This document shows positions 44,686-47,265 of a stretch of 64,000 nucleotides of DNA, piece after piece. Made by a program: the position numbers and the translations under genes. The first letter of the stretch is position 1, and each line of letters begins with the position of its first letter. The DNA comes from Anaerolineales bacterium (GTDB lineage Bacteria; Chloroflexota; Anaerolineae; Anaerolineales; Villigracilaceae), in contig JAFGMV010000004.1 of assembly GCA_016927315.1 (NCBI GenBank), forward strand, positions 1-64,000, written 5' to 3'. A model generated the notes under the pieces. It did no database searches and was not told the DNA's origin. It saw nothing but the letters and a program-made list of their open reading frames with translations.

Positions 44686-46794
44686 GTGAATCAAGTCAAC
44701 CTCACCCAGCGACAGCGCGAAGTGATCGAGGCCGGTGCAGACAGCCGGATCTTTCTTTCCGGCCAGGCCGGATGCGGGAAAACCACAGTGGGGCTCGAGC
44801 GAATGCTGTACCTGCTCGAGCAGGGAATCCCTGCAAACAGCCTGTTGGTGCTGTCTCCGCAGCGCACACTTGCGGCTCCCTATTTCGATGCATCCACCTC
44901 CCCGCGGGCCGGGCCGGGCGGACAGGTTTCCATCCTAACGGTTGGCGGTCTGGCACAGCGCACAGTCGACCTGTTCTGGCCGCTGGCGGCAGAAACCGCC
45001 GGGTTCACCCATCCTGATCAACCGCCGGTCTTCCTGACCTTGGAAACGGCACAGTACTATATGGCTCACCTGGTCCGGCCGCTGTTGGAGGAGGGTTTCT
45101 TTGAATCGATCACCATCGACCGCAACCGCCTGTACAGCCAGATCATTGACAACCTGAACAAATCGGCGGTGATTGGCTTCCCTCACACAGAAATCGGCGA
45201 CCGGTTGAATTCTGCCTGGCTGGGTGATCCCGGCCAACGGCGGATCTATCAAGATGCCCAAGAAAGTGCTTCGCGTTTCCGGGCATACTGCCTGGAGCAT
45301 AACCTGCTCGATTTCTCGCTGCAGTTGGAAGTGTTCCTGGATATTCTCTGGCCAGACCCGGTTGTGCGGGAATACCTTACCCAGATCTACCAGTATCTTA
45401 TCTATGACAACGTCGAAGAAGACATCCCCCGGGCCCACGACCTGCTGCGGGACTGGCTGCCCGAATTCAAAGCCGCCCTGCTGATCTATGACACGGGCGG
45501 CGGGTATCGAAAATTCCTGGGCGCCGATCCAGAAACAGGCCAGGCTCTGAGCCAGCTGTGTGACCAACAGATTGAACTGGATGACTCTTTTGCAGCCTCC
45601 CAGGGGATCGCAAACCTGGCCAACAACCTGCGCAGCGTGATCTCTCCTTCCGGAGGATCACTGTACCGGGAGAAAGTCCCGGTAGGGGTACTGAGCTTCC
45701 CGCATGAGACCCGTTTTTACCCGCAGATGCTCGATTGGGTAGCAGAACAAACACGATCCCTGGTCTCGGAAGCGCAAATACCGCCAGGGGAAATTGTCAT
45801 CCTGGCACCTTACCTGTCCGACTCGCTGCGCTTTTCCATCATGGAGCGCCTGCAGGCACGCGGTATCCCGGTTCGCTCCCACCGCCCGTCACGGTCATTG
45901 AGGGACGAGCCGGCCTCACAGGCGCTGCTGACCCTGGCAGCCCTGGCGCATCCTGGCTGGCATATGCGCCCGAACACCTATGACGTCACCCAGGCGCTGC
46001 TGCTGGCTCTCGATGGCATGGACCTGGTGCGGGCCAAACTATTGACAGAAATCGTCTACCGCAGCAGGGAACTTACCCTGGCGCCTTTTGAACAGATCAA
46101 TCCGGACATGCAGGAACGGATCACATTCCTGCATGGGAATCATTACACCCAGCTGCGCAGCTGGATACTGGAATTCCAAGCGGGACCTCCTTTACCGCTC
46201 GACCATTTCCTGCGGAAGATGTTCGGGGAAGTACTCTCACAGCCGGGATTCGGTTTTCACCACGATTTCGACGCTGTGAGAGTAGCCGCCAGCCTGATCG
46301 AATCGATCCGCAAGTTCCGCCTGGCGATGGAACCTGCCCAACCCAGCCAGGGAGGGCTGGAGTTCGACCTGGGGAGCGAGTACATTTCCATGCTGCAGGA
46401 CGGAGTCATTTCCGCCCAATACCTGGAAGCCTGGCGCACCGGGACGGATGAAGCGGTACTGGTGGCGCCGGCTTACACCTTCCTGATGATGAACCGTCCG
46501 GTTACGGCACAGTTCTGGCTCGATCCCGGCTCGAGCGGCTGGGTCGAGCGGCTGTCGCAGCCGCTGACACAACCGTATGTGCTCTCACGCGGCTGGCCTG
46601 ACGCCCAGCTGTGGACAGACGCTCATGAAGTCGAGACCAACCAGGAGAACCTGGCCAGGCTGGCCAGCGGCTTGCTGTACCGCTGCCGGGAGCGCCTCTT
46701 TTTGGGATTGGCAGACCTGGGTGAAAGCGGCTTCGAACAGCGTGGTGCTTTATTACAAGCTTTTCAGCAAGTTTTGCAAGAAAGCAGTAAATAA
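44686..46794 (+). CDS. UvrD/AddB-like protein with degraded helicase motifs
   Basis: A 702-aa protein of the UvrD/Rep fold. Walker A is intact (LSGQAGCGKTT, about residue 26). At the position of motif II the DExxD box reads YDNVEED, so the catalytic Glu is Asn. Motif III reads YDTGGGYRKFLGADPE without the Gln. The motif V and VI regions (APAYTFLMMNRPV and LLYRCRERLFLG) lack the usual residues. It likely binds but poorly hydrolyses ATP, as with AddB or RecC subunits. The GTG start at 44686 has no clear ribosome binding site. It probably partners the intact UvrD at 47272. Its stop codon overlaps the left inverted repeat of an inserted module. Confidence 0.82.
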   Translation: MNQVNLTQRQREVIEAGADSRIFLSGQAGCGKTTVGLERMLYLLEQGIPANSLLVLSPQRTLAAPYFDASTSPRAGPGGQVSILTVGGLAQRTVDLFWPLAAETAGFTHPDQPPVFLTLETAQYYMAHLVRPLLEEGFFESITIDRNRLYSQIIDNLNKSAVIGFPHTEIGDRLNSAWLGDPGQRRIYQDAQESASRFRAYCLEHNLLDFSLQLEVFLDILWPDPVVREYLTQIYQYLIYDNVEEDIPRAHDLLRDWLPEFKAALLIYDTGGGYRKFLGADPETGQALSQLCDQQIELDDSFAASQGIANLANNLRSVISPSGGSLYREKVPVGVLSFPHETRFYPQMLDWVAEQTRSLVSEAQIPPGEIVILAPYLSDSLRFSIMERLQARGIPVRSHRPSRSLRDEPASQALLTLAALAHPGWHMRPNTYDVTQALLLALDGMDLVRAKLLTEIVYRSRELTLAPFEQINPDMQERITFLHGNHYTQLRSWILEFQAGPPLPLDHFLRKMFGEVLSQPGFGFHHDFDAVRVAASLIESIRKFRLAMEPAQPSQGGLEFDLGSEYISMLQDGVISAQYLEAWRTGTDEAVLVAPAYTFLMMNRPVTAQFWLDPGSSGWVERLSQPLTQPYVLSRGWPDAQLWTDAHEVETNQENLARLASGLLYRCRERLFLGLADLGESGFEQRGALLQAFQQVLQESSK

Positions 46795-46820
46795 CCGCCA
46801 AGGCCGCAAAGTACACTAAG
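46793..46820. repeat. Left inverted repeat of the GxxExxY module
   Basis: 28 bp beginning AACCGCCAAGG and ending ACACTAAG. It includes the last two bases of the upstream TAA stop codon. Confidence 0.65.
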
Positions 46821-46834
46821 GAATGTGAATTGGG

Positions 46835-47242
46835 ATGTCTCAAGAAATTGAAGCTAGCGCCAAAGATGTTGTTGACTCTACAATTAAGGTGCACAAAGCC
46901 CTCGGGCCCGGGCTAATGGAATCTGCCTGCCAGCAATGCTTGTCATACGAACTTCGCCAGTGCGGAAGAAAGGTACTTACCGAATTGTTGGTCCCAATAT
47001 TCTACGATAACCAACAGATCGATGCTGGCTATCGACTCGATATGCTCATCGACAATATGGTTATTGTCGAAAACAAAACTGTTGAAACCCTGCTACCCAT
47101 CCACGTGGCTCAATTGCTGACCCATCTCAAACTCAAGGAATGTAAACTGGGTTTTCTACTCAACTGGAATGCCAGACTGATGAAAGACGGTATTCAGTGC
47201 GTCGCAAACGGAATGCCAGTTAACCTCCTTAAAAAATCTTAG
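46835..47242 (+). CDS. GxxExxY-family protein (PD-(D/E)XK fold)
   Basis: A 135-aa member of the GxxExxY family. KALGPGLMESAC carries the naming motif, with Cys where Tyr is usual. The nuclease-type core follows: an Asp in DAGYRLDMLIDN, then VIVENKTVETL (E-x-K), then VAQLLTHLKL. These match a PD-(D/E)XK arrangement. The cellular role of the family is not established. Base use is more AT-rich than that of the helicase genes on each side, consistent with insertion. No strong ribosome binding site. Its stop codon overlaps the right inverted repeat. Confidence 0.85.
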   Translation: MSQEIEASAKDVVDSTIKVHKALGPGLMESACQQCLSYELRQCGRKVLTELLVPIFYDNQQIDAGYRLDMLIDNMVIVENKTVETLLPIHVAQLLTHLKLKECKLGFLLNWNARLMKDGIQCVANGMPVNLLKKS

Positions 47243-47265
47243 CGTCCTTTGCGAGCTTAGCGGTT
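47238..47265. repeat. Right inverted repeat of the GxxExxY module
   Basis: 28 bp whose reverse complement begins AACCGCTAAG. It overlaps the ORF stop codon and lies where a ribosome binding site for the next gene would be expected. Confidence 0.65.

Follow-up and report, generated by a model that had tools for sequence, protein, structure and literature searches.

A 473-bp unit inserted between two helicase genes of an Anaerolineales bacterium appears, with confidence slightly better than even, to be the 'master' form, the one that bears the gene, in a family of extragenic palindromes with arrays of short iterons as ends, in which the GxxExxY protein would act on its own iterons and copies lacking the ORF would spread. 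The unit lies in the window (the whole stretch of 64,000 nucleotides that was analysed) and consists of one GxxExxY ORF between inverted ends (Table 1).

Table 1. Features of the GxxExxY element and of its insertion site; positions refer to the window.
Feature	Position	Strand	Remarks
Whole element, 473 bp	46793..47265	+	GxxExxY ORF between inverted ends
Left end	46793..46820	+	Three iterons, 9-bp period; begins within TAA of upstream gene
Left-end iterons	CGCCAAG 46796-46802, CGCAAAG 46805-46811, CACTAAG 46814-46820	+	7 bp each
Right end	47238..47265	-	Inverted copy; iterons CGCTAAG / CGCAAAG / CGCTAAG on - strand
GxxExxY ORF, 135 aa	46835..47242	+	TIGR04256 / PF13366
Upstream host gene (702 aa) with divergent UvrD-like N domain	44686..46794	+	Left border of insertion site
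Downstream host gene, UvrD-type helicase, 741 aa	47272..49497	+	Right border of insertion site

The two ends are imperfect inverted repeats, identical at 23 of 28 positions, as had been stated in the preliminary description. Each arm is built of three tandem 7-bp iterons at 9-bp spacing (CGCcAAG-gc-CGCAAAG-ta-CaCTAAG). When up to 3 mismatches are allowed, the end pattern is found at only two places in the window, which are both ends of the element, and at none in 100 shuffles; the flank-to-flank alignment score is 18 (shuffled mean 9.7, maximum 13.5). The previously described borders were confirmed: the left end begins within the upstream stop codon TAA (46792-46794), and the right end is followed after 6 bp by the UvrD ATG (47272). 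The right arm contains the stop codon of the GxxExxY ORF. This ORF is indeed more AT-rich than its surroundings (GC 45% vs 59% in each neighbour gene). Neither arm has the GTAG or CGTC tetranucleotide that would serve as a tag at the foot of the hairpin, the ends reading AACCGC... Profile searches of the element detected no DDE, tyrosine or serine transposase domain, which distinguishes it from a classical IS or a MITE of an IS; PF13366 was the sole match, and Y1_Tnp was absent. A 23-nt direct repeat (83% identity) was also observed, one copy being located just past the left end (46818-46840) and the other in the ORF (47135-47157).

The GxxExxY ORF, reported earlier as the only one in the unit and as having a PD-(D/E)XK-like core (D, then E-x-K), matches PF13366 (PDDEXK_3; E 1.5e-31) and TIGR04256 (E 4.1e-33; 114.2 bits, curated cut-off 35). 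Its product is therefore a family member over the curated cut-offs. The family is annotated solely as a nuclease-superfamily protein. The window protein keeps E29, D69, E79-x-K81 and Q93; D69 and E79-x-K81 are invariant in the family alignment (79 sequences). The name-giving G-x-x-E-x-x-Y is incomplete: G26 and E29 are kept, and Tyr32, which is Tyr in 78/78 relatives, is replaced by Cys. Altogether three positions invariant in the 78 relatives are changed (L28M, Y32C, R122C), as is a near-invariant one (Y97H). Cys32 is read as decay within the GxxExxY family because of the profile score and because relatives at the same site have Tyr. Judging by these substitutions, the window copy is probably a decaying one.

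The AF2 model of the protein (pLDDT 92.8) has a compact PD-(D/E)XK fold. Its top structural match, with a modest Z of 9.3, is SSO0001, a Cas4 protein; Hjc resolvase, restriction-enzyme-like folds and others follow. A Foldseek search with the model returned no match at E < 0.001, and no solved structure was found by sequence. The set of E, D, E-x-K and Q-xxx-Y residues in GxxExxY proteins is that of the RecB/Cas4 branch of PD-(D/E)XK. The protein is of the single-domain PD-(D/E)XK nuclease type with a Cas4/RecB-like core, and cleavage is predicted for it. The Cas4 and RecB-type PD-(D/E)XK nucleases, including MGE-Cas4, were taken as a comparison system (PMC5704561). The likeness concerns the core and the top structural match. 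Unlike Cas4, GxxExxY proteins have about 130 aa and lack the conserved iron-sulphur-cluster cysteines (no Cys column is invariant or near-invariant across the 79 sequences), and the window copy is not located beside cas genes.

Two further GxxExxY matches are present in the window's genome. One of them (G000:C18:8551-9023) is a sister element of 473 bp, identical in length to the window element and with ends of the same build, which lies in sense on contig 18 between the HerA gene and a gene adjoining NurA; its ORF carries one TAG. The other, on contig 67, has one TAA and no recognisable ends. Across the genome the end pattern rises above background only at the four ends of the two 473-bp elements, so the repeats there do not occur without the gene. 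In the search suggested earlier, the ends were found in this genome only around GxxExxY copies. Since every GxxExxY copy of this genome is altered or has stops, all three look broken or altered. The system looks moribund here, being represented by an altered in-frame copy and two copies with stops, with no ORF-less copies of its flavour.

The gene upstream of the element had been considered a degenerate helicase. This view has to be abandoned, since the ORF is intact and its homologues, 52-72% identical, adjoin UvrD in relatives; the gene is divergent, not decaying. Comparison of orthologous loci, proposed in the same description as a way of finding the empty site, revealed an empty junction in G017, where the helicase genes are adjacent with a gap of 11-24 bp. 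In other relatives the helicase gap holds different inserts, including Y1 transposase-like genes. Two further genera belonging to this family also have a GxxExxY element with iteron ends in the gap; their proteins group with the window protein in a clade (support 94/93), the sister group of which (L070, L071) is located beside other genes. A clade spanning three genera at the helicase site and a sister group elsewhere indicate that the element is an old resident that arrived after at least one change of site. Retention of the ORF by relatives without the repeats had been named as an observation that would speak against the unit; the relatives that keep the ORF in the helicase gap (G038, G009) keep the iteron ends with it.

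Both helicase-site relatives carry extra tandem partial copies of the right end. At four loci (L011 and L405 at the helicase site, L097 and L119) one end and the adjoining part of the ORF are tandemly duplicated, in some cases together with part of the neighbouring gene, as if repair had copied part of the junction repeatedly. The helicase junction collects various small elements: Y1 (IS200/RAYT-like) transposase genes lie in the gap of L012 and L039 (the L012 type was checked by Pfam), and L020 and L021 hold apparent antitoxin/toxin pairs.

Similar ends accompany GxxExxY genes far beyond this family. GxxExxY loci were gathered from the same order and from species across bacteria and archaea, and the best inverted match between 220-bp flanks was determined at a threshold of z 4, with ORFs of the same contigs as controls. 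Inverted ends were detected at 82/112 GxxExxY loci from many phyla vs 20/480 control ORFs; the remaining 30 loci have no ends at this threshold. The earlier claim that the unit is discrete, with inverted ends and a nuclease-like protein of its own, is supported. In the 71 kb lying no farther than 250 bp from GxxExxY ORFs, the strict three-iteron motif gave 87 arms, as against 46 in the other 482 kb and 1 after everything was shuffled, which corresponds to an enrichment of about 13-fold. Chance symmetry of the ends is ruled out by the end-pattern shuffles, by the comparison of loci with controls and by the strict-arm counts. The iteron spacing has its mode at 9 bp, followed by 8 and 10 bp, and is nearly absent in shuffles. 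The window protein retrieved no relatives from viral contigs, where one locus only was found with the family alignment.

The iterons occur in many flavours (CGCAAAG, CACAGAG, CGCAGAT, CACGAAT, ATTAAG and others). For 43/103 loci the best match of a flank was its own opposite flank, about 1 being expected; hence, both ends of one element share the iteron flavour. Distances between proteins and between iterons are correlated over diverse loci (Mantel r 0.38, with 0/2000 permutations as high; 0.37 with GC held constant) and between sites of 20 Flavobacterium genomes (r 0.49, 1/5000 permutations). To judge from these correlations, the iteron type tracks the GxxExxY protein sequence even within one genus, and shared ancestry can explain part of this. 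At loci with co-directional neighbours the GxxExxY ORF lies in sense in 54/61.

The behaviour of the two forms, with and without the gene, is seen best in 20 close Flavobacterium genomes, which contain about 110 GxxExxY copies (2-12 genes per genome). The 80 copies retrieved for site comparison fall into about 14 sites at stop/start junctions. By species, the hemW/cyclase junction holds a full element, an ORF-less palindrome of another flavour (85-90 bp) or a palindrome of a third flavour, and in more distant species nothing is inserted. The gap at the map/methyltransferase junction is filled, depending on the species, by one or the other of two unrelated elements (different iterons; protein identity 29-40%), and it is empty in at least 11 species. 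The CCA-adding-enzyme site is filled in 5 genomes and empty in 15; when empty, it already holds GAATTCGTGGC, which is half of that element's end. The filled and empty states are scattered on the flank tree with 8 changes, the tree being weakly supported. No clear target-site duplication was revealed at the CCA-adding-enzyme and map/methyltransferase sites (flanks 80-90% identical; AT-rich near-matches rejected), and no base-exact empty site was found, the closest pairs being about 90% identical.

At most sites the copies with the gene have diverged to about the same extent as their flanks, or more; clusters 11 and 12, which are small, are exceptions. At the CCA-adding-enzyme site ORF identity is 92% vs 81% in the flank. 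The median dN/dS is 0.03-0.12 at 11/12 sites and 0.21 at one site, the latter value coming from two pairs. The nearest cross-site identity of gene-bearing copies is 84%, and near-identical copies at different sites are absent. The Flavobacterium full elements are thus mostly inherited vertically and are under purifying selection.

The ORF-less palindromes are numerous in the same genomes. One iteron flavour alone has 36-349 arm matches per genome (0-2 per strand in the reversed-pattern control). When G203 was compared with its close relative G224, all of the 3 examined full-element sites of G203 were found to be occupied in G224 by a palindrome that differs in flavour and lacks the ORF, one of these being nested within older arms; a comparison over 240-280 kb revealed more nested and exchanged palindromes. 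The preliminary description held that wide occurrence of the repeats without a GxxExxY ORF would speak against it. Such occurrence is real in Flavobacterium, where the palindromes lacking the ORF seem to be the mobile, REP-like component of the system, and it is not seen in the window's genome. Judging by these sequences, the ORF-less ends look like the dynamic part, and the gene-bearing copy like a resident master. The number of arms is not significantly related to the number of same-flavour GxxExxY genes in the 20 genomes (Spearman 0.33, p 0.16), and the 162 arms of G198 are not matched by any intact GxxExxY gene; the lack of this relation is the main quantitative point against the simple version of the proposed explanation. 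In Flavobacterium a short palindrome of a different kind, CCCGATAGCTATCGGG, lies as an insert within iteron palindromes or within sequences resembling the ends (L389, L413 and G224/G203 intergenic regions). In L372 (G157, map/methyltransferase junction) apparent type A end remnants surround an unrelated palindrome, CCTGCAAGGTTTTCAAAAACCTTG, and look like a decayed element overprinted by another repeat.

In the explanation preferred here, the GxxExxY protein would bind its own iteron arrays and would cut or otherwise process DNA at them, probably at the palindrome, perhaps when it is extruded or single-stranded. Through repair or re-synthesis, a new copy of the palindrome could then arise in an operon junction or in the loop of a palindrome already present. 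The gene-bearing copy would persist chiefly by vertical descent, like RAYT genes, while the ORF-less copies would proliferate. We infer both the binding and cutting of the arrays and the spread of palindromes by repair.

Several other mechanisms could leave some of these traces. A self-contained transposon, moved to new places as an entire 473-bp unit by its GxxExxY protein through excision or copying, would agree with a discrete unit having inverted ends, with up to 12 copies per genome, with the existence of empty sites and with the location of L070 and L071, the nearest relatives outside the window protein's clade, at another site. It is unlikely, given that full copies stay at shared sites in Flavobacterium, ORFs diverge about as much as flanks, no gene-bearing copies are near-identical across sites and no target duplication was seen. 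The fixed intergenic sites with patchy occupancy, the scattered states on the (weakly supported) flank tree, the small nuclease gene and the half end retained at the empty CCA-adding-enzyme site resemble a free-standing homing endonuclease, which would cut the empty junction, so that the same site acquires the element when repair uses the occupied allele as template. Homing is nevertheless judged quite improbable: unrelated proteins share the map junction, ORFs and flanks have diverged equally at most sites, which does not fit a recent sweep (the CCA-adding-enzyme site is the exception), and inverted iteron ends and numerous ORF-less copies are foreign to homing endonucleases.

The ends could also act at the RNA level. 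They would pair in the operon transcript and undergo processing, much as RNase III processes the intervening sequences of 23S rRNA, so that the small gene is insulated; the palindromes would stabilise or terminate mRNA, and movement would not involve the DNA ends. The sense orientation within operons, the position of palindromes in stop/start gaps and the S23/IVS parallel are in favour of such a module. However, G-U-compatible arm mismatches are not in excess (173 vs 203), and RNA pairing was rejected by this test as the cause of end symmetry. Nested insertions also contradict it, as do the tandem iteron build and the match between iterons and protein, which point to recognition by a protein; the probability of an RNA-level module is low. 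Least of all is it expected that GxxExxY is a passenger, i.e., cargo or a host nuclease kept, for example, for defence, and that the palindromes are spread by RAYT-type Y1 transposases or by the machinery of other palindromes. Y1 transposase-like genes do occur in the same helicase gap of two relatives, and the arm and gene numbers are not significantly correlated, but this very improbable explanation leaves aside the enrichment of arms at GxxExxY genes and the protein-iteron covariation, and the iterons that accompany S23 genes are of another, heptameric type.

The element resembles known selfish repeat systems in style, not in ancestry. In REP/RAYT systems (REPtrons, REPINs) and TIRtrons, a small gene lies within inverted palindromic repeats that have many ORF-less intergenic copies; the gene-bearing copy is largely vertically inherited, and the repeat type goes with the enzyme type (PMC2817692, PMC3116915, PMC3733652). 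The GxxExxY gene shares this layout, being flanked by inverted palindromic repeats, and in the Flavobacterium relatives, though not in the window's genome, numerous ORF-less repeats are added to it. The enzyme differs, belonging to PD-(D/E)XK and not to the HUH-tyrosine transposases; the ends differ as well, since they lack the GTAG/CGTC tag and are made of three to four iterons spaced 8-10 bp apart, and many iteron flavours coexist in one genome. Because the HUH transposase and the tag are absent, the element was not assigned to REP/RAYT. By analogy, the GxxExxY system may work like REP/RAYT with a nuclease in place of the transposase.

A second parallel is provided by S23p/IVS elements (PF05635), described as selfish, in which a small ORF is also located between inverted repeats of tandem short units. 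They differ in the four-helix-bundle protein, which has no nuclease fold, in the 7-bp period and in the location of the known examples in rRNA genes. The PF05635 S23 genes of the relatives (L151-L180) are surrounded by inverted tandem-unit repeats with a period of about 7 bp, e.g., TTAGCGG x5. In the Coxiella 23S intervening sequence, GACAGAT heptamers precede the S23p ORF (PMC4990558), which fits these inverted heptamer-like arrays; the S23 type of one-gene element is a likely source of 23S rRNA intervening sequences. One-gene, iteron-ended elements may thus form a wider class.

The earlier proposal that the unit is mobile holds in part. Its modular structure and the empty helicase junction of G017 are in its favour; ready spread of the gene-bearing copy is not borne out, considering the fixed Flavobacterium sites, the similar divergence of ORFs and flanks and the three-genus clade at the helicase site. 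It is unlikely that the gene-bearing copy, especially the altered one of the window, spreads by itself. No description of the inverted ends of GxxExxY genes was found in the open-access papers searched. In RepRanger, Flavobacterium genomes with many REPs are listed, with no mention of RAYT or GxxExxY.

GxxExxY genes are common, often several per genome, and are annotated without function; their link to iteron ends and gene-less palindromes provides a testable job for them. Many intergenic repeats that lack an explanation, such as those of Flavobacterium, would be accounted for by this link, and REP/RAYT, the best-studied case of a gene associated with a population of extragenic palindromes, would gain a counterpart based on a nuclease. 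The covariation of iteron and protein is a ready set of natural protein-DNA specificity pairs. A more general reading, toward which doubt somewhat exceeds confidence, is that GxxExxY proteins could be the dedicated enzymes of phylum-spanning selfish palindromes, which would form a class apart and do without any transposase, with each protein acting on regularly spaced arrays of its own flavour and ORF-less copies being multiplied at operon junctions by cutting and repair. If this reading is true, these palindromes would constitute, together with the S23/heptamer elements, a broader class of one-gene, iteron-ended elements.
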